A DNA stretch of 64,000 nt from Gimibacter soli (GTDB lineage: Bacteria > Pseudomonadota > Alphaproteobacteria > Sphingomonadales > Kordiimonadaceae): contig NZ_CP116805.1 of NCBI RefSeq assembly GCF_028463845.1, positions 1,364,001-1,428,000 of the forward strand, in the 5' to 3' direction. Shown here in pieces: positions 14,961 to 55,650 of this stretch (position 1 is its first letter; the number at the start of each line of letters is the position of its first letter). The translations under genes were made by a program, and so were the position numbers. The notes beneath the pieces were generated by a model. It did not search any database. It was not told the origin of the DNA and was given only the letters and a program-made list of their open reading frames with translations.

Positions 14961-16754
14961 TCACACGCGGACGTCGATGCCGGTTTCGGCGGTTACATAG
15001 GGCAGGATCGCTTCAAGATCCGTGCTGTCGAGATGCAGGACGGCGCCTTCGGCATCGTCCGTTGCGGTGCCGTCGCCATCAGTGCCGTTGCCAGCACCTG
15101 CGGCCATGCGTTCATCGATCCGGTCGGCGAGCATGGCTTCGGCGAAGGCCTTGCCAGCGCTTTCCTGGCCGGCGCCATCGTCAAGGCTGAAGCTCAGGCC
15201 GGCCATGTCGGTCTTGTGACCGCCGGCTTCCAGCGCCTTTTCAAGCGAACGGCTATCGCGGCGCAGCATATCGAGCGTTTCGCGGCGGTCGGCGACGACC
15301 TCGGCGCGCACCACACCATCCTGCGTGAACTGCATCTTCACGGTCACCCGGCCAAGCTCCGGCGGGTCGAGGCGCACGGTGAAATTCTTGTCGCCGGCTT
15401 CCACGGCTTTGGCGATCTGGATATTCACCTGATTAAGCACGTAATTGCTTTGCGTCTGTGCCGTGAAGCCGGTGGCTGCAGGACGGCCAAGGAGGCCGGT
15501 TTCGCCCTTCAGGGTCGTCAATCCGCCGCCGATCATCGACTGGCCGCTGGTGTCAGACTGGCCGGTCAGGCTTTCGGGCGTGCTGCTGGCGGCTGGCCGG
15601 TCGTTCGACGCCAGAAGGAGGCCGGTGTCGCGGCCTGGGGTGCGGGCGGCGTCGTGGGTCTGCTGGGTTGCCGCAGCAACATCGGTGCTTGCTGCTTGCT
15701 GGCCACTGGCCGAGCCATTCCCGGCAGCAGCTTGCGCTGCTGCGGACTTGGCTTTGCCGTTCGCATTGGCGTTTGCGGATTTCTGCTGGCCGGTCTGGGC
15801 CTGCGCGAGGGCAGGGGCCGCCTCTGCAGCAGCTTCATCGGCAAGCTCGGTCACGCTCGGCATCAGGTCGGGCGAGGACGGCGCTTTCGACTTGGCGGCC
15901 GTGGCATGGGCACGGGCGGTATCCGATGCCTGCGCGGGCAGGTCGGCCACAGGTTCATCCAGCGTATCAGCCGTTACGCTTGCGTAATTAACGTCAGCTG
16001 GCTTGGGATGCGGCACAGACTGCGCGCGGGCAGCATTGGCGGCGCGCTCGGCGGCAAGCGCTGCGTCGGCGTCGCTACCGGTATCACCTTCACCCTCGCT
16101 GTCTGTGGCGGGGGCAGCGGTTGCATCATCGGCGGCAAGATCGATGTCGACGGTGGTATCGGCGTCTGCTTCAACAGTTTCCGTGGCAGCAGCCTTGGCA
16201 GGAATGCTGCTGGCAGTCTCGGTAGGCGCTGCAACCTTGTCGGTTGCTGCGGGCTGCGCGGTGGCTTTGGCCGGTGCAACAGCCACTTCAGGGGCAGGTT
16301 GCCCGGTGCCGGACTGCGTGTCTGCTTGCGCTTCCGGTGTAGCTGCCGATGCAGCGGGAACGGCGCCGTTGCCTGCAGTGGTCGGCACACTGGTATCTAT
16401 CGTATCCGAACCCGCATCGATGTTCGCGTCAGCCGTGCCATCCTCGGCACCTGTCTCACCAACGCCCAGCATATCGGGCAGGGCGACAGGCGCATCGGAC
16501 TGTACGGTCGTATAGCTATAGGGGCCTATGGCGAACATATAATCGGATGCGCTCATGCCGGCCGCGTCGGTGCCTTCCAGCAACTGCCCGTTGGCGAACT
16601 TGCCGGGGGCTGCGGTGGCGGTGACGCCGGTCAGCATGTCGGCGAAGCTCTGGCCGGCTGCGCCCTGGCCATTTGCCTTGGTGCCCATGAAAGCAGAGAG
16701 CATGCCGCTCGAGGAGGCACCAAACATCTGCATCATTTGATCGATCGGGTTCAT
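14961..16754 (-). CDS. fliK: Flagellar hook-length control protein FliK
   Basis: This 597-residue secreted protein measures hook length and switches export specificity. About 430 residues are low-complexity Ala/Thr/Asp-rich sequence. The conserved C-terminal Flg_hook domain follows near 435-525, with 'FTVRLDPPELGRVTVKMQF' and 'VVADRRETLDMLRRDSRSLE'. The extreme C-terminus, 'TAETGIDVRV', shares its last residues with three small proteins at 49.9-52.6 kb. It is the first gene of the fliK-flgD-flgE unit, with a sigma-54 promoter candidate about 90-105 bases upstream. Confidence 0.92.
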   Translation of the reverse strand: MNPIDQMMQMFGASSSGMLSAFMGTKANGQGAAGQSFADMLTGVTATAAPGKFANGQLLEGTDAAGMSASDYMFAIGPYSYTTVQSDAPVALPDMLGVGETGAEDGTADANIDAGSDTIDTSVPTTAGNGAVPAASAATPEAQADTQSGTGQPAPEVAVAPAKATAQPAATDKVAAPTETASSIPAKAAATETVEADADTTVDIDLAADDATAAPATDSEGEGDTGSDADAALAAERAANAARAQSVPHPKPADVNYASVTADTLDEPVADLPAQASDTARAHATAAKSKAPSSPDLMPSVTELADEAAAEAAPALAQAQTGQQKSANANANGKAKSAAAQAAAGNGSASGQQAASTDVAAATQQTHDAARTPGRDTGLLLASNDRPAASSTPESLTGQSDTSGQSMIGGGLTTLKGETGLLGRPAATGFTAQTQSNYVLNQVNIQIAKAVEAGDKNFTVRLDPPELGRVTVKMQFTQDGVVRAEVVADRRETLDMLRRDSRSLEKALEAGGHKTDMAGLSFSLDDGAGQESAGKAFAEAMLADRIDERMAAGAGNGTDGDGTATDDAEGAVLHLDSTDLEAILPYVTAETGIDVRV

Positions 16755-45876: not shown

Positions 45877-46230
45877 TCAGATGTCGTCAAGGCCGACGGC
45901 GTAGGTGCGCTCCACCTTTGCCACACGGGTGATGTAAGCCCGGTACCAGCGCTTCTGGCCGGCGGCCTGCGCGGCGCGGTGGTCGGCGTTCTTCTTCCAG
46001 GCCTTGATGGCGGCTTCGTCCCGCCAGTAGCTGACGGTGATGCCGACGCCCTCGGCATCCCGCACGCTTTCAACGCCCAGATAGCCATCCTGCTGCGCCG
46101 CCAGTGTGACCATCGCTTCGGCGGTCTGGGCGTAGGCATCGGGTTCGGCATCGTTGCGGATGTTCGAGAAAATCACTGCGTAATAGGGTGGTTCAGGGGT
46201 GCGGGCGAGGGGGCTGCCGTGACTGCTCAT
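45877..46230 (-). CDS. Antibiotic-biosynthesis-monooxygenase (ABM) domain protein
   Basis: This 117-residue protein of the ABM ferredoxin-like fold has '[11 protein letters not shown]', '[36 protein letters not shown]' and '[24 protein letters not shown]'. Related YgiN/HmoA-type proteins include monooxygenases and heme-degrading enzymes. Its ATG overlaps the stop of the oxoprolinase gene (ATGA), so they are co-translated. The substrate is unknown. Confidence 0.88.
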
Positions 46231-49200
46231 TCTTCTTTCTCTCCATAACCGCCGCCGCCGGGGGTTTCGACCCTGATGCGGTCGTCGGGTTCGACGCTGG
46301 CGCTGCCAGTAGCGCCAAGCTCATCAATCGCGCCACTTGCACGAAGGATATGGGTATGGCCGACCATGCCGGGCTCGCCGCCCATAAGGCCGGGTGGGGC
46401 GATTCGGCGGTGGCCCGAGAGAATCGATACATCCATCGCTTTAAGGAAGCGGATCTCGCGAACGATGCCGTTGCCGCCATGGTGCAGCCCGGCGCCGCCG
46501 GAGCCGCGCCGCACGCCAAAATGTTCGACCCGCACCGGATAGCGCCATTCCAGCACTTCGGGGTCGGTCAAACGGCTGTTGGTCATGTGCGACTGAATGG
46601 CGTCGGCGCCGTCGAATGTCGCGCCTGCACCGGTGCCGCCGCCGATGGTTTCATAATATTGGTGGCGGGCGTTGCCGAAGGTCAGGTTGTTCATGGTGCC
46701 TTGGCTGGCTGCCATCACACCCGTTGCCATCAGAAGCGCGTTCGTCACCGCCTGGCTCGTTTCCACATTGCCGGCCACGACAGCGGCGGGCGGCTCTGGG
46801 TTCAGGCAGCAGCCGGCGGGCACGATCAGTTTGATTGGCTTCATGCAGCCGGCATTCAGCGGGATATCGCTGCCGGCAAGCAGGCGGAAGACATAAAGGA
46901 CAGCAGCACGGGTAACGGCCAGGGGTGCGTTGAAGTTGGTGGTGCTGAGGCCGCTTGTACCTGTGAAATCGACCGTCACGCCGCGCGCGGCGCGGTCCAC
47001 CCGCACTTTCACCTTGATGGTGATGCCGCAGTCCATCGGGTAGCTGACGTCGCCGTCCGTCAGCCGTTCGATGGCGCGGCGCACGGCTCCTTCGGCATTG
47101 TCCTGCACATGCTGCATATAGGCGTCAACGACCGGTGCGCCGAACTCGCCAACGAGCCGGAGGACGCCATCGATGCCGCGCCGGTTGGCAGCGATCTGGG
47201 CCTTGAGGTCGGCGATATTCTGGTCCGGATTGCGGGCAGGGTGCGGGCCGGCCGCCAGCAGTTTGCGGATCGTGGCTTCACGGAACTTGCCGCCCTCCAC
47301 AAGGGCTGTGCTCGCAAAAGCGATGCCCTCTTCCGTGATGCTGGTCGAGTTCGGCGGCATCGAGCCGGGCGTGATACCGCCGATATCGGCATGGTGCCCG
47401 CGCGAGGCCACATAGAAACGCGGCGGTTCGTCCGGGTTCAGCCAGACGGGCGTGACGACCGTGATATCCGGCAGGTGGGTGCCGCCATGATAGGGATCGT
47501 TCGTCATGAAGGCGTCGCCCTGCCGCATGGTGGTGCCATTGGCGGCGATCACGGCCTTCACGCTGGCACCCATGCTGCCAAGATGCACCGGCATGTGCGG
47601 GGCGTTGGCGATGAGTTCGCCGTCTGCATCGAATACGGCGCAGGAGAAATCGAGCCGTTCCTTGATATTCACCGAGTGCGCGGTGCGGGCCAGCACGCCG
47701 CCCATATCCTCGGCAACCGACATGAACAGATTGTTGAAGACCTCAAGCAGCACGGGGTCAGCTTCCTGAAGCGAAACGCCACGCCGTGTGGTGGCGGCTG
47801 TCCGGGTTAGCAGAAGCTGGTCGTCATCCGTCCGCTCGGCCCGCCAGCCGGGCTCCAGCACGGTGGTGCTGCCGTTTTCAAGGATGATGGCCGGGCCATC
47901 AAGCGGCGTGCCGGGCACGATGCTGCGGCGGTCGATCACCGGCACGGTGCGATGCTTGCCGGCCATATAGATCTGGCGAGGCTCGTGCGCCTTGGCCGCA
48001 CTCCCCATGGCCGCTTCAAGCGTGCCCTCATAGCCGCCGCCCGAGGCCTCGACCTCGACCGCTTCCACAAGGATCGGCCTGTCATCTTCCGTGAAGCCAT
48101 AGGCCTCGGCGTGGGCAGCGCCGAAGGCGGCGCGCATTTCACCGGCACTGCCGAAGGCGATGGGCAGGGTCGTGTCCGATCCCTTGTATTTGAGCCGCGC
48201 GTCGATCCGCAGCGCAACGTCAGCGCGCGGGACACCCTGCGCGACAAGCGTGTCGGTGACCGTTTCTTTCAGGTCCTCTACGATATCGGCGAGGTCGGCT
48301 TCAGCCTCAATCGGTGCTTCGACGGCGGCGGTGCGCAGGGCCTTGAGATCGGCGAGACCCATGCCGAGTGCGGAAAGGACCCCGGCAAAGGGCGGGATCA
48401 CCACGCTATCCATATGGAGCGACGCGGCGAGGAGGCAGGCATGCTGCCCGCCGGCGCCGCCAAAGGTAAGGAGGCTGTAGCCCGTCACATCGTGCCCGCG
48501 GGCCACCGAAATGCGGCGGATCGCGCGGCCCATGTGTTCCACCGCCACATCAAGGAAGCCTTCGGCGATGGCCTCGATTTCCATGCGTTTGCCGGTCTCT
48601 GTTTCGATCCTGTCGGCAATCGCGGTGAAACGTTCACGGGCTGCAGCCACATCAAGGGGCGCGTTGCCATGCGGGCCGAAAACGGCAGGGAAAAGATCGG
48701 GCTGCAGTTTTCCCAGCACCACGTTGCAGTCGGTGACTGTGGCGGGGCCATCGAAACCATAGCTCGCGGGGCCGGGGTAGGCGCCCGCCGATTCCGGGCC
48801 GACCTGGAAGCGACCGTCCTCGAACCGGCAGACCGAACCGCCACCCGCCGCCACTGTTTCAATCGACAGCATGGGCACACTGACCGGGATACCGGCAAGG
48901 GTGGCGTCCACGCAGCGCTCATAGACGCCGCGATAATGGGTCACATCGGTAGATGTGCCGCCCATATCGAAGCCGATCAGGCGTTCCTTGCCCGCCCGGC
49001 GGCCCATTTCCGCCATGGCGACAACGCCGCCTGCTGGGCCTGAAAGCACGGCATCCTTGCCGTTGAACGTGTCGGCGCGAGTCAAGCCGCCGTTCGACTG
49101 CATGAAGAAAAGCGGTGCGCCGTTCACGTCATCTTCCAGCCGACCCACATACTGCGCCAGCACGGGGGAAAGATAGGCATCCACAACACTGGTGGCCCCG

Positions 49201-49823
49201 CGCGGGATCAACTTCATCAGCGGGCTGACCTTGTGGCTCACCGACACATGGGTGAAGCCCTCGTCAACGGCGATGGCAGCGGCGAGCGCCTCGTGCGCCG
49301 GGAAGCGGTAGCCATGCATGAAGACGATGGCGAGGCTGGTGAAGCCATGGCGCCGCGCTTCGGCCAGCGCATGGCGCACTTCCACGGCATCCAGCTCGGT
49401 GATGATATGGCCGTGCGCATCGATCCGCTCGTCCGCCTCGATGACAAGGTCATAGGGCGGGACAGCCCGACCTGGCTTCAGGGCGAAAAGATCTTCGCGG
49501 TGTTGCTGGCCAATCAGCAAGGCATCCGCCATGCCGCGCGTGATGAGAAGGGCGGTGCGGCAGCCCTTGCGTTCAAGGAGTGCGTTGGTGGCCACCGTGG
49601 TGCCCATGCGGATGGTGGTCACGCGCTCGGCAGGAAAGGGGGCCTTGGCCTCAACGCCCATGATCTGCCGCATCGCATAGACAGCGGCGTCACGGTAGCG
49701 GCCGGGGCTTTCGGACAGATATTTGTGTGCGGAAAGGATGCCTTCGGGGTTGCGTGCGATCACATCGGTGAAGGTGCCGCCCCGGTCGATCCAGAATTGC
49801 CATTTGCCATCATCTGCACTCAT
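46227..49823 (-). CDS. Fused 5-oxoprolinase / hydantoinase (HyuA-HyuB)
   Basis: This 1198-residue enzyme has an N-terminal HyuA ATPase half ('DRGGTFTD' at residues 13-20, '[14 protein letters not shown]' around 285, '[14 protein letters not shown]') and a C-terminal HyuB half ('[14 protein letters not shown]', '[14 protein letters not shown]'). Fusion of the two is characteristic of ATP-dependent 5-oxoprolinase, which opens pyroglutamate to glutamate, although hydantoinases have the same plan. A gamma-glutamyltransferase lies about 6 kb away. The start at 49823 was chosen before '[10 protein letters not shown]'. The ABM gene follows directly. Confidence 0.94.
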
Positions 49824-49886
49824 GCGCGCTACCCTAAGCCAGCCTATGGCCGGACGCCAGCGCACAATCGCAGTATCGGTTTTATG

Positions 49887-50099
49887 TCAGGCCTTTATAT
49901 CAACCTTGCGGCCCACGCCTTGCGCCTTGGCGGATCGGCGGGCGTTATCGGCGCGGCGATCTGCGGCGATACGCTCGGCATCGGCATTATGCTTGCGGGC
50001 ATTATCCTGTGCGGCACTTTCGCGTGCCTTTTCCCTGATCCGGGCCTGTTGGGCAAGATTCTCCGCCGACAGGCCGCCCCCTTTGCTAACGGACGTCAT
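49887..50099 (-). CDS. Small Ala/Arg-rich protein with a conserved C-terminal tail (A)
   Basis: This 70-residue protein starts at 50099 after a very good GGGGGAA ribosome site. It is helical, Ala/Arg/Asp-rich and without membrane segments. The last 30 residues, 'ADRRADNARRS...VGRKVDIKA', align with the end of the protein at 50288-50929 ('AERRSSAANRLS...TGEKLDISV'). The function is unknown. A TTAACCAT half-site and a perfect inverted repeat lie upstream. Confidence 0.75.
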   Translation of the reverse strand: MTSVSKGGGLSAENLAQQARIREKARESAAQDNARKHNADAERIAADRRADNARRSAKAQGVGRKVDIKA

Positions 50100-50174
50100 T
50101 CTGTTCCCCCTGAGCGGGCCGACACGCGCTCCCGGCATGCCTTTCAGAGCCCGATCAGGTGATTCTGCGTCAAA

Positions 50175-50182
50175 TTAACCAT
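50175..50182 (+). promoter_or_regulatory. CtrA half-site TTAACCAT
   Basis: This 8-base match to the CtrA half-site lies 76 bases before the start at 50099, in the promoter region of that gene. The second half-site is not conserved. Confidence 0.35.
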
Positions 50183-50191
50183 GTTGGGAAG

Positions 50192-50221
50192 CCTTTATGG
50201 CCATCTAGGTGGCCATAAAGG
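50192..50221. repeat. Perfect 12-base inverted repeat
   Basis: CCTTTATGGCCA and TGGCCATAAAGG flank a 6-base centre. It lies between the start region of the small gene at 50099 and a terminator. It has no T-run and could be an operator or an RNA hairpin. Confidence 0.7.
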
Positions 50222-50234
50222 TGCTTCAGATATG

Positions 50235-50261
50235 AAAAAGACGCCTCTCGGGGCGTCTTTT
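50235..50261 (-). terminator. Terminator downstream of the repeat-rich small protein
   Basis: GACGCC and GGCGTC arms with flanking A-runs and T-runs lie just after the stop at 50288. The T-run on the minus strand makes it a good terminator. Confidence 0.8.
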
Positions 50262-50287
50262 CAGGTCTCAAGCTGGCCGGATGGGGC

Positions 50288-50929
50288 TCAGACGCTGATG
50301 TCGAGCTTTTCGCCGGTGCCAGGTGCCGTGGCCGACAGGCGGTTAGCTGCGCTGGAGCGGCGCTCCGCGACACGGTCAGCGGCCGCGCTGCGGCTGTCGC
50401 GCTCGTCGCTTGCGGTCGTTTCACGCGAAGCCTGACGGGCGGCGAGTTTCTCGGCGAGGCGGCCTTCGGCAGTGGTTGCCTTCTTGGTCGTCGTCGTGGC
50501 AGCAGGTGCCGACGCACTTGAGGTTTCAGCCGGCTCGGACGTTTTGGCAGCGGGTTGCGCCTGCGAGGCTGCCGGGGCAGCATTCGCGGCAGGTGCTGCT
50601 TGCGTTGCGGGGGTGCCACTGCGGGCAGTCTGACGGGCAGAAAGCTTCTCGGCGAAGCGTTCTTCGGCCGAGCGCAGGCCCTGCTTCTCTTCCGACTTCG
50701 ATTGTTCCGTCGGCTGCGAGACCGTGGCGCTTGCATTCGTTTTGGTCGCGGGGGCGGTTTGCGAGGCCTGTGCCGACTGCTGCGCCTCCTGTGCGCCGCC
50801 GCCAGTCAGCCGGTTCGCGGCACCTTCGCGGCGGGCCAGAACGGCGGCTTTGCGAGCGTCCGCTTGTGCGCGCGCTTCGCTGGCCAGTTGCGCCGATGAA
50901 AAACCGGCATAGCTGTTCACTGCAGGCAT
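50288..50929 (-). CDS. Ala-rich repeat protein with a conserved C-terminal tail (B)
   Basis: This 213-residue soluble protein has four short charged helices separated by Ala/Pro/Thr/Ser linkers. The helices are near 25-43, 86-103 ('SAEERFAEKLSARQTAR'), 152-169 ('TAEGRLAEKLAARQASR') and 180-199 ('ADRVAERRSSAANRLS'). The second and third are clear copies. The end 'GTGEKLDISV' resembles the ends of proteins at 49887 and 52433 and of FliK. The last 32 residues align with protein A, so the two are likely paralogues. The function is unknown. Confidence 0.8.
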   Translation of the reverse strand: MPAVNSYAGFSSAQLASEARAQADARKAAVLARREGAANRLTGGGAQEAQQSAQASQTAPATKTNASATVSQPTEQSKSEEKQGLRSAEERFAEKLSARQTARSGTPATQAAPAANAAPAASQAQPAAKTSEPAETSSASAPAATTTTKKATTAEGRLAEKLAARQASRETTASDERDSRSAAADRVAERRSSAANRLSATAPGTGEKLDISV

Positions 50930-51052
50930 GATGTCACCCTGTTTAAGGGACTTCCGGCGCGACCCACGCGGTGGAAATCCAACCCGATCAGGCGATCATT
51001 ACGCCATGGGCAAAATAAAGCAAAGCTTTGGATAAAATTGTATCGAGTTTGC

Positions 51053-51634
51053 CTAGCTGCGGGTGAGGGCAGCTACTTCACCCAGCACGCGGGCGCGGGC
51101 GGCGGCAATCACGGTCGAGCCCTTCTGGCGGGCACCGGCGCCAAGATCGGCCTGCAGGTTCATCAGGCGCGAAAAGTGCGGCGATGCTTCGTGGTCCGAT
51201 ACCAGCGAAGCCAGTTCACCGGCGGTGAAATGCTGCTGGTAAAGGTCGGCCATCACTTCGTCCCATGCGGCACCATAGGTGCCCTGGGCATCGCGGATGA
51301 GGCGGACGACAATCGTTTTGGCAGCTTCAAAGCCATAGCGCTCGACAAGCGCCGCGACTTCGGGGGTCGTTTTCACGTCGTTCAGGATCAGCAGCGAGAG
51401 ATTGCGGTTCAATTCCGTCTCGCGGATGAAGCGCAGTGCCGTGACGCGCGCGTCCGTTGCTGCCAGTTCAAGCGTCGGGCCGAAGCTTTCGGCGCTTGCC
51501 ATATCGGGCGTGCTGAAATCACCCGGCATGCCGGCAGCTGCAGGCAGCGTGAGGCCAAAATACAAAGCCGCCTGCAGAAGGGTGCGGGGGGCAAGGCCGT
51601 GACGGCGGGGCATGTTCAAATGAGTCGTGCGCAT
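51053..51634 (-). CDS. Exported protein, possibly DUF2059-like
   Basis: This protein of 193 residues has an N-terminal signal peptide ('LLQAALYFGLTLPAAAG'). The C-terminal part has 'MADLYQQHFTAGELASLVSDHEASPHFSRLMNLQADLGA', which recalls DUF2059 proteins, a family without a proven role. The start could be ATG 51613 instead. The assignment was made by eye and is tentative. The gene is separate from its neighbours. Confidence 0.7.
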   Translation of the reverse strand: MRTTHLNMPRRHGLAPRTLLQAALYFGLTLPAAAGMPGDFSTPDMASAESFGPTLELAATDARVTALRFIRETELNRNLSLLILNDVKTTPEVAALVERYGFEAAKTIVVRLIRDAQGTYGAAWDEVMADLYQQHFTAGELASLVSDHEASPHFSRLMNLQADLGAGARQKGSTVIAAARARVLGEVAALTRS

Positions 51635-51993
51635 GTCGACGCACGTAAAGATGTTCAGTTACAGGAATGTGACAAAGGGGCCTCTGTCACGCCAATTTCA
51701 CATTGAGGGGCGAAAAATGGCCTATGTCATAAAAAATTCATAAAACAGTCATCGCCATGTAATCGATTCGGGAACCGGCAGAAATGCTCGGGTCGGGGTG
51801 TAACATTCAGAAAAGCGGCAGACTTCTGCGGAAAATCTGAATTATGACGCATTGCATCGGTCGCCCGCTGGCCGATAATGGAGCCATACCAAGCGTCGAA
51901 GCGACCATGAGAGTTTCAAAAGGCGTTTCGAAGCGATCTCGGGCACAATCAAGCGAATCTCGTGATCAAGTAACAAGTGGAAGGGGTAGTGAC
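51635..51993. other. Intergenic region between divergent exported-protein genes
   Basis: This 359-base stretch contains AT-rich DNA near 51720-51770 and is divergent between the minus-strand gene and the plus-strand gene at 51994. An in-frame leader of about 50 codons precedes 51994 but lacks family features. No structured RNA was recognised. Confidence 0.5.
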
Positions 51994-52362
51994 ATGGAAA
52001 AACAACTCAAGAAAGCGCTGGCCATCGGTTCCTTCGCCGTTCTGTTCGGCGCATCGTCAGCAATGGCACAACCGGTTGCCGCAATGCCGAATGAAGAGGG
52101 CAAGACCTTCGCGGCTGAAGCGATGAAATCCGGTGACTGGTCGAGCGCAGAAGAAGACCTGATGGGCAACGGCGAATCCGTCTTTGCCAAACTGAACCTC
52201 GCTTCGGTCTATGCCCAGACGGGCCGCACCGACAAGGCGGTGGCGCTGTATCAGGAAATCATCAACGGCGACGAAAATCCCTATGCCGTGCTCCTGAACG
52301 GCAAGCCGCGCCGCGTGAAAAACATCGCCAAGTTTGCCTTGGCTCAGCTGTCCACCAACTGA
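51994..52362 (+). CDS. Small periplasmic TPR-like protein
   Basis: This 122-residue protein starts at 51994 after GAAGGGG. A signal peptide covers residues 1-25 ('FAVLFGASSAMAQ'). The mature part has one or two helix pairs of TPR type, 'GKTFAAEAMKSGDWSSAEEDL' and 'LASVYAQTGRTDKAVALYQEI'. It has no catalytic residues and is likely a protein-binding module. The strong terminator after it makes it monocistronic. Confidence 0.8.
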   Translation: MEKQLKKALAIGSFAVLFGASSAMAQPVAAMPNEEGKTFAAEAMKSGDWSSAEEDLMGNGESVFAKLNLASVYAQTGRTDKAVALYQEIINGDENPYAVLLNGKPRRVKNIAKFALAQLSTN

Positions 52363-52380
52363 GCCTGAAGCGGCGGCAAT

Positions 52381-52420
52381 AAAGAAGGGGCGTGACCGGC
52401 TGGGTCACGCCCCTTTCTTT
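52381..52420. terminator. Strong bidirectional terminator
   Basis: The arms AAAGAAGGGGCGTGACC and GGTCACGCCCC(T)TTCTTT pair over 16 bases around a short loop. It sits between convergent genes. Confidence 0.9.
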
Positions 52421-52432
52421 TCGGGTTTGGCT

Positions 52433-52615
52433 TCAGACCTTGATATCGATCTTCAATCCCTTGCCGCCACCGGCAGGGGAAACGATCTGGGCGGCGTTGC
52501 GAGGCTTGCCACCCTTATCCATCACGATATCGTTGCCATGATCCTTGTTCATCGCGCCGACCTTGGAGGCCAGCTGACTATGGACACCCGAGACAATCGC
52601 TTTGATCGCGGCCAT
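52433..52615 (-). CDS. Small protein with a conserved C-terminal tail (C)
   Basis: This 60-residue protein starts at 52615 with GGGAG about 10 bases upstream. It is basic, Gly/Ala-rich and without membrane segments. It ends 'GLKIDIKV', sharing the last residues with proteins at 49887 and 50288 and with FliK, but the rest does not align. The function is unknown. Confidence 0.6.
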   Translation of the reverse strand: MAAIKAIVSGVHSQLASKVGAMNKDHGNDIVMDKGGKPRNAAQIVSPAGGGKGLKIDIKV

Positions 52616-53304: not shown

Positions 53305-54435
53305 TCAGATCCGCTCGAGAATGAAGGAGCCGATCGAATAGCTTGCGCCGAACGAACAGAGGAGACCGAACTCGCCCGGCTTGAAATCGTCCTTGTATTT
53401 ATCAAAGGCGATGATGCAGCCGGCGCCCGCCGTGTTGGCATATTCATCCAACACAATCGGGGCCTTGTCCTGTGTCGGGTCTTCACCCAGCAACTTGCGG
53501 GTCGCGAACATATTCATGTTGATGTTCGCCTGATGCAGCCAGAAGCGCTTGAAATCCTCGACCTTGTAGCCCTTCGCGGCAAGCTGGGCATTCACATGGT
53601 CGATCACCTTCGGCAGCAGTTCCTTGAAGACGACACGGCCCTGCTGGATGAAGCGCTGGTCAGGATGGCTGATCTTGTCGCGCTCGATCAGCGTACGGGT
53701 GCCGAAACCGGCGGCGATATTCGTGGAATATTCGGTGAAAAGCTTGCGGTCGTGGATGCGGAAGGCGCTGGTCGATTTCGTCTCGGCCTCGCGTTCGATC
53801 ACGATGGCAACGGCGGCGTCGCCGAAGATGAAGTGGCTGTCGCGGTCGGTATAGTTCATCGCGGGCGTGATATATTCCGCCGTCACCACCAGCGCCTTGT
53901 TGGCCATGCCGCTTTGCACGGCATCAACCGCTGTCGACATGCCGAAGGTGGCGCTGGAGCAGGCCATGGCCATATCGAAGGCAAAGCCCTTGGCACCAAG
54001 GATCTTCTGCAGTTCGGTCGCCATCGAGGGCACGAAGCGTTCCCAGATCGAGGACGACAGGATCACCAGATCGATATCTTCGCCTTTGAGGTTGGCTTCT
54101 GCGAGTGCCTTTTCAGCCGCCGCCAGCGCCATCTGCACCTGCACAGGCGTGCCCATCGGGCCTTCGGGCGCCAGTTCCGAAAGGTTCGGATACATGCGCG
54201 TCGGGTCCGTCGGGCCCTTGCCGTCCATCATGAAGCGGTTCTTGATGCCCGATGCCTTTTCGATGAATTCCACGGAAGACATCTGCATGGCGTCGATGGT
54301 GCCTGCCTCGATTTCCGCCTTGTGGTCATCGTTCCAGGCGGTTGCCCAGGCGTTATAGCTTTCCACAAGCGTTTCGTTGCTGATGGAATGCGGCGGGGTG
54401 TAAACACCCGTGCCGCTGATCACGATACCGGTCAT
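53305..54435 (-). CDS. Beta-ketoacyl-ACP synthase III-like enzyme (1)
   Basis: This 376-residue KASIII-family protein is longer than E. coli FabH. It has 'SSVEFIEKASGIKNRF' and the catalytic triad Cys159 ('MACSSATFG'), His301 ('WLHQANINMN') and Asn334 ('EYANTAGAG'). It is probably a decarboxylating condensing enzyme in fatty-acid or ketone biosynthesis. The substrate pocket is not predictable. Related enzymes of this length in Pseudomonas divert acyl-CoA into fatty-acid synthesis. It follows a related enzyme by 31 bases and ends near MAPEG. Confidence 0.9.
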   Translation of the reverse strand: MTGIVISGTGVYTPPHSISNETLVESYNAWATAWNDDHKAEIEAGTIDAMQMSSVEFIEKASGIKNRFMMDGKGPTDPTRMYPNLSELAPEGPMGTPVQVQMALAAAEKALAEANLKGEDIDLVILSSSIWERFVPSMATELQKILGAKGFAFDMAMACSSATFGMSTAVDAVQSGMANKALVVTAEYITPAMNYTDRDSHFIFGDAAVAIVIEREAETKSTSAFRIHDRKLFTEYSTNIAAGFGTRTLIERDKISHPDQRFIQQGRVVFKELLPKVIDHVNAQLAAKGYKVEDFKRFWLHQANINMNMFATRKLLGEDPTQDKAPIVLDEYANTAGAGCIIAFDKYKDDFKPGEFGLLCSFGASYSIGSFILERI

Positions 54436-54466: not shown

Positions 54467-55600
54467 TCAGCCGCGTTCTACGATCAGGCTGCCGATCGAA
54501 TAGCCGGCGCCGAACGAGCAGATGATGCCCTTGGCGCCTTTCGGCAGGTCGGCCCGGTGCTTGTGGAAGGCGACAACCGAACCGGCGCCTGCCGTGTTGC
54601 CATATTCATCGAGCACGGTCGGGGCCTCGTTCGGCTCGGGCTCGCGGCCCAGAAGCTTCTTCGCGGCATACATATTCATGTTGATGTTGGCCTGGTGCAG
54701 CCACATGCGGGCGAGATCGGAAACCGTGAGGCCATTGTCGGCCAGTTGCTTCGAGATGAAGTCGGTGACGATGGGCAAGAGTTCCTTGAAGACCTTGCGG
54801 CCTTCCTGAACGAAGAACATGTCCTTGCGCATCATCGAGCCGTCATCAAGCCGCGTGAAGGGGCCATAGTTCGACCGGATATTGTTGGAATACTGGGTGA
54901 AAGACCGGGTGTTCAGCACTTTCCAGTGGTCGCGGCCTTCGGCGAGATCGGCGCGTTCGAGCACAACAGCCGTGGCGATATCGCCGAAGATGAAGTGGCT
55001 GTCGCGGTCGCGGTAATTCACAAGGGTGGAGAAAATCTCCGGGTTGATCATCAGGACGCGCTTGGCGGCACCCGATTTGATCGAATTGACGGCGGCGATC
55101 AGGGCGTAGGTCGCGCTGGAGCAGCCCATGACCATGTCATAGGCCGAGCCGCCCTCGATGCCCAGATGGTGCTGCACTTCAACGGCGATTGCCGGGAAGG
55201 AGCGCTGCAGGAGCGCGGTGCCGCAGATGATCTGGTCGATATCGCCGGGTTGAAGGCCGGCCTGTGCGATGGCCTGCTTGGCGGCATCAAGCGCCATCCT
55301 GGCCTGCAGGGCGGGTTCTTCAGTGGTGCCGTGCGCGCCTTCAGGGCAGCGCGACAGCAGACGGTCGAGATCCATCACGCCACCGACTTCCACCAGATGG
55401 CGCTTCTTGATGCCCGAGGCTTTTTCGATGAATTCGGCGGAGGAATATTGCTTCGCGGGGGTCAGGCCAGCGTCGATATCGGCTGCGTGCTCGGCATTAT
55501 ACTGATCGACGTGGGCATTGAAGGCCGCAACCAGTTCTTCGTTGGTGATTGCGGCAGCCGGTACGTGGAGACCGGTGCCCGTGATGACTACATCAACCAT
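54467..55600 (-). CDS. Beta-ketoacyl-ACP synthase III-like enzyme (2)
   Basis: This 377-residue paralogue of the following gene has the same layout and catalytic residues Cys160 ('VMGCSSATYA'), His302 ('WLHQANINMN') and Asn335 ('EYGNTAGAG'). Shared blocks include 'FIEKASGIK', 'RDSHFIFGD' and 'YSIGS'. Each copy keeps its own N-terminal substrate loop, so they are likely a heteromer or two steps with different acyl substrates. The ATG at 55600 was chosen with GGAGA upstream; a TTG at 55621 is possible. A small inverted repeat lies 51-64 bases upstream. Confidence 0.9.
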   Translation of the reverse strand: MVDVVITGTGLHVPAAAITNEELVAAFNAHVDQYNAEHAADIDAGLTPAKQYSSAEFIEKASGIKKRHLVEVGGVMDLDRLLSRCPEGAHGTTEEPALQARMALDAAKQAIAQAGLQPGDIDQIICGTALLQRSFPAIAVEVQHHLGIEGGSAYDMVMGCSSATYALIAAVNSIKSGAAKRVLMINPEIFSTLVNYRDRDSHFIFGDIATAVVLERADLAEGRDHWKVLNTRSFTQYSNNIRSNYGPFTRLDDGSMMRKDMFFVQEGRKVFKELLPIVTDFISKQLADNGLTVSDLARMWLHQANINMNMYAAKKLLGREPEPNEAPTVLDEYGNTAGAGSVVAFHKHRADLPKGAKGIICSFGAGYSIGSLIVERG

Positions 55601-55650
55601 ATCTTCGCTTTCTCCGGACAAGCTAGGCGGGCGGTTTCCGTCCGTCCCAC

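Follow-up and report, generated by a model that had tools for sequence, protein, structure and literature searches.

Known flagellar export signals are N-terminal. In Salmonella, the last five residues of FliK have been proposed to contact the cleaved FlhB domain (FlhB-CCD) and so to flip the export switch (PMC13344023), and the switching of the export gate by the last residues of FliK is still under study. When Caulobacter FliK-C lacks its LDIRI end, Lon no longer degrades it and its overexpression no longer affects motility, and it is only for this protein that Lon turnover needing the last residues of such a tail has been shown (PMC8545394). LarA (DUF1150), the Lon activator of alphaproteobacteria, is a small protein that also acts through its last five residues, including a terminal histidine required for activity (PMC10665427). 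The YjfB family (PF14070, putative motility protein) comprises small, flagella-linked proteins; YjfB is uncharacterised and its gene forms a sub-module with that of sigma-28 (PMC10802407).

Tail genes in the window

The window, that is, the whole stretch of 64,000 nucleotides of Gimibacter soli DNA analysed here, belongs to a genome consisting of a single contig of 3.59 Mb, whose nearest named relative found was Pseudokordiimonas caeni. Small proteins encoded in it carry a phi-D-phi-x-phi tail at the C-terminus, as FliK does. The first gene (49887-50138, reverse strand, as are the next two and fliK) is a small Arg/Ala-rich ORF of 83 aa, or 70 aa from an inner ATG, which ends in VGRKVDIKA (codons for GRKVDIKA at 49890-49913). 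The second (50288-50929) encodes an Ala/Arg/Glu-rich protein of 213 aa ending in TGEKLDISV (codons for GEKLDISV at 50291-50314), and the third (52433-52615) a protein of 60 aa ending in KGLKIDIKV (codons for GLKIDIKV at 52436-52459). The fliK gene of the window (14961-16754; Flg_hook PF02120, E 1.8e-13) ends in TGIDVRV, the codons for its last five residues, IDVRV, being located at 14964-14978. For the 50288 protein, modelling from the sequence alone predicted three helices with low-confidence linkers between them and an unstructured tail.

None of the three tail proteins matched a Pfam model even at E 10, Flg_hook PF02120 included, and NCBIfam had no family for them; YjfB_motility (PF14070) had no match among the window proteins or across the whole genome. 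The identity of these proteins with LarA was considered and dropped because LarA has a terminal histidine, whereas the window proteins end in Ala or Val; none of them matched the DUF1150 model either.

The coordinates and endings given in the earlier note all proved exact. It had also taken the 49887 and 50288 proteins as paralogues, with the third sharing only the tail. Both statements were upheld by alignment. With the tail removed, the 49887 and 50288 proteins aligned with a score of 74, against 43 +/- 6 for shuffled sequences, and none of 500 shuffles was as good; the 52433 protein showed no similarity to the other two outside the tail. The 49887 gene lies almost wholly inside a 392-bp segment (49892-50283) that is missing from P. 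caeni, which has 19 bp in its place, and its protein aligns gap-free to the 60 residues that directly precede the 50288 protein's tail; the gene is therefore likely to be an incomplete copy of the adjacent one, either gained here or lost in P. caeni. The P. caeni orthologues of the 50288 and 52433 proteins retain their tails, and relatives of the 52433 protein with 37-45% identity retain KG[LV]KIDIKV.

Other features of this region were noted in passing. The 392-bp segment contains a palindromic stretch, CTTTATGGCCA..TGGCCATAAAGG, at about 50193-50222. A single protein of 1212 aa with fused hydantoinase A and B (oxoprolinase) domains is encoded at 46227-49865. A ketoacyl-ACP synthase III-like gene (53305-54435, Pfam match) is adjacent to a gene at 54467-55621 that looks like its paralogue.

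Frequency of the tail and its association with flagellin

In the window, the loose pattern TNRAYRTNNNNGYNTRR had five matches, one of which ends in TGG and not in a stop codon. The expected number was 0.86, and all of 100 shuffles stayed below five. Genome-wide counts were obtained from pattern searches and sampled stretches. Over the whole genome, G-x-x-[phi]-[DN]-[IV]-x-[VA]-stop had eight matches, compared with two for the reversed pattern. Six of the eight were small ORFs with D in the tail, and three of these were outside the window (C1:351522, C1:1773206 and C1:2110549), encoding proteins of 109 aa ending in LGQIIDIRV, 57 aa ending in AGTQVDVKV and 60 aa ending in VGERVDVQA. The pattern had been derived from three of the six matches, which leaves three as a test: from the C-terminal residue frequencies of sampled genes, 0.066 matches to the 8-mer were expected in about 3400 genes, which gives roughly P = 5e-5 for three (Poisson, by hand). 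The looser pattern [LIVM][DN][IVT]x[VAI], applied to ORFs of at least 40 aa in 400 kb sampled as 20 stretches, of which three (60 kb) had been picked around the extra tail genes, recovered only those three genes.

The strict pattern and its reversed control were counted in 290 alphaproteobacterial genomes, in which flagellin was scored by PF00669. Flagellin-positive genomes (n=182) had 161 matches compared with 52 for the control, and flagellin-negative genomes (n=108) had 22 compared with 24 (Fisher p 3e-4 for the contrast between both groups). Genomes of at least 3 Mb gave 121 matches and 34 controls with flagellin, and six and 10 without it. Kinship was handled solely by counting one genome per family, which gave 62 matches compared with 18 controls in flagellin-positive genomes (Wilcoxon p 4e-5) and 11 compared with eight, not significant, in flagellin-negative ones; between groups, p was 0.003 by a rank test and a weak 0.08 by Fisher's test. 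Judging by the control counts, chance would produce roughly one third of the matches in flagellin-positive genomes, and many of the matches in these genomes were plausible small genes. Five flagellin-negative matches were inspected (L038, L039, L065, L067 and L069), four of which were frames of 8-11 codons and one of which had no proper start.

The tail thus exceeded its control only in flagellin-positive alphaproteobacterial genomes, although another trait of flagellated lineages could be the source of this correlation. The earlier note had proposed a C-terminal motif with a flagellar link, perhaps a docking or sorting signal, for example for flagellar export. The enrichment over the control and the confinement of the excess to genomes with flagellin sustain the motif and its link; export of the carriers would be hypothetical, the known signals for it being N-terminal.

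The tail is beyond chance. A five-residue pattern picked by eye, short and defined only after the sequence had been seen, is what a chance resemblance would look like, but this explanation is scarcely credible here, since the genome matches outnumbered those of the reversed pattern and the 8-mer expectation, the window surpassed its shuffles, and the sampled 400 kb, the 290-genome survey and the count of one genome per family all spoke against it. So did an arginine ahead of the tail, described below, which emerged independently of the search pattern.

Carrier proteins and their likeness to FliK and YjfB

The ORFs behind 130 fetched loci were inspected and 70 credible carriers were kept by length and by eye, a set that is incomplete and may contain false members; about half of the fetched matches were dropped as short or implausible frames, in agreement with the control count. 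The 70 carriers had a median length of 76 aa and were enriched in Ala, Pro, Ser and Gln; 66 had no Cys and 64 no Trp. Outside the tail they did not align (8% mean column identity). Their consensus was R-G-x-x-[LIV]-D-[IV]-x-[VA]-COOH, with Arg at position -9, which was not in the search pattern, in 47 of the 70. Position -2 was mostly polar or charged, and the last residue was Val more often than Ala, the only two residues that the alphaproteobacterial search pattern permitted there.

The endings LDILV and LDVVV, which some carriers have, seem to resemble the D-phi-phi-phi signals of type I secretion. That the tail as a whole is such a signal, at the extreme C-terminus, is nevertheless very improbable, given the polar or charged residues that mostly occupy position -2 and an excess tied to the presence of flagellin; moreover, no type I secretion family was clearly among the commonest neighbours of the carriers.

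When Pfam was run on 73 proteins, namely the three window proteins and the 70 carriers, the sole models with more than one match were YjfB_motility (five) and Flg_bbr_C (four), and both are flagellar families. The latter (PF06429) is the C-terminal domain of rod and hook proteins, and the window proteins do not match it; Flg_bbr_C-like carriers L071, L137 and L138 end in ALLDILA, ETLDILA and DTLDILA. The corresponding ending of rod proteins forms the tip of a packed helix. Most of the YjfB members inspected end in Gxx[VIL][ND][TIV]xA, and they are small and flagella-linked like the carriers, but the YjfB model matches none of the three proteins from the window. A YjfB-like protein had no match when compared with viral contigs.

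Carrier tails obey residue rules similar to those of the FliK and YjfB ends. Among alphaproteobacterial FliK ends, examined by hand, 19 of 28 fitted [LV]-D-[IV]-x-[IVA] and 26 of 28 fitted [LVY]-[DN]-[IVL]-x-[IVA]; FliK and the carriers share the last five residues by the rule [LV]-[DN]-[IVL]-x-[IVA], as well as a free C-terminus. In contrast to FliK, the small carriers have neither the Flg_hook domain nor the ruler, and most of them have R-G-x-x, which FliK ends lack, ahead of the last five residues. FliK was found in all 26 genomes with YjfB. In beta- and gammaproteobacteria with YjfB, the last residue was mostly Ala in both FliK and YjfB (for example, YjfB ends GRNVNTTA, GTQVNTFA and GNSIDVMA accompanied FliK ends VDIFA, VNTFA and VDLYA), unlike in alphaproteobacterial FliK, where it was Val or Ile. 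These parallel differences between groups, obtained with a carrier search confined to Val or Ala ends, suggest that the tails of FliK, YjfB and the carriers may have one common reader.

The earlier note had regarded the motif as undescribed. This did not hold for FliK, since a function of its last five residues is already known; what appears to be new is that many unrelated small proteins have such a tail, and a search of the open-access literature, outside which most subscription papers lie, returned no report of it on proteins besides FliK.

Genomic context and candidate readers of the tail

Carrier genes lie outside flagellar operons, and no flagellar family was among the 25 commonest neighbour families of the carriers. 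In the studied genome, which has nine flagellin matches, sigma-54-like promoters of the type TGGCAC-N5-TTGC were found roughly 90-120 bases before the start of four of five flagellin genes examined (L278, L279, L281 and L282). None of the six tail genes of this genome had a convincing sigma-54-type promoter, and common control by a flagellin-type one was discarded.

The commonest neighbour family was the uncharacterised DUF2336 (PF10098), with eight of 122 neighbours. It was present in nine carrier loci (L106, L117, L121, L123, L124, L125, L126, L156 and L167) from at least six families, mostly divergent from the carrier, and is itself strongly associated with flagellin, being found in 143 of the 182 genomes with flagellin and in 11 of the 108 without it. 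DUF2336 could be a partner of the tail or merely a co-inherited flagella-linked gene; the open-access literature search found no paper on it. If this or another receptor common in flagellated alphaproteobacteria read the tail, the likeness to FliK would be partial or convergent. We consider this improbable: flagellated genomes that lack DUF2336 have carriers too (21 matches compared with nine controls in 39 genomes), and in the studied genome none of the five or six DUF2336 genes adjoins a tail gene.

The tail probably serves in the building of the flagellum as a tag for docking or for degradation. It could primarily be a Lon degron, small flagella-related proteins being made and then removed via their last residues like Caulobacter FliK, so that a common tail would mean a common protease and not a common docking site. 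The earlier note had already named a protease among the possible readers, a suggestion that gains from analogy with the LDIRI degron of Caulobacter FliK, whose FliK-C is stable without these residues (PMC8545394). Furthermore, the five C-terminal residues of LarA can suffice for recognition by Lon and are transferable (PMC10665427), and the tail studied here, which is partly hydrophobic, is both free and unstructured. Nevertheless, we hold degradation as its primary role to be rather unlikely. A general degron should exceed the control in aflagellate genomes too, which it does not, unless its substrates are solely flagellar. The described autonomous Lon H-degron ends in His (PMC11986505), as does LarA, whereas the last residue here is Val or Ala; and outside alphaproteobacteria the FliK and YjfB ends shift alike, the FliK tail having there a documented switch function.

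We tentatively prefer, at slightly less than even confidence, to see the tail as a FliK-type C-terminal peptide ligand carried by small flagellar accessory proteins and docking at the export apparatus. In other species the last five residues of FliK act, as shown or proposed, on the cytoplasmic domain of FlhB, and export specificity flips. The small proteins present these five residues, in most cases preceded by R-G-x-x, on short bodies, disordered or helical, that lack the switch domain of FliK, and may dock by them at the site of the FliK tail. Once docked, they might compete with, time or tune the action of FliK or the entry of substrates. Through this tail the alphaproteobacterial carriers may also be substrates of Lon, like FliK, and hence short-lived. 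Docking at the export gate, most likely on FlhB-C, would be the role we put first, with recognition by Lon second and possibly simultaneous, as in FliK. The position of carriers outside flagellar operons, tail genes without the sigma-54 promoters of flagellin, and an R-G-x-x foreign to FliK ends argue against docking. It is possible, although we lean against it, that many flagellated bacteria each encode several small proteins, unrelated but for one FliK-like C-terminal peptide, which use it to address the same site on the export machine. This widespread class, YjfB among its members, would then be a layer of small flagellar-export regulators that has so far gone unrecognised.

If Lon were to read the tail, there would be a second class of C-terminal Lon degron beside the His-ended one. 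If the docking reading is true, natural small proteins with the FliK tail and without the ruler or switch domain would be ready-made probes of the export-gate site, the uncharacterised YjfB family would have a candidate role, and many unannotated small proteins of flagellated bacteria would bear a searchable mark.
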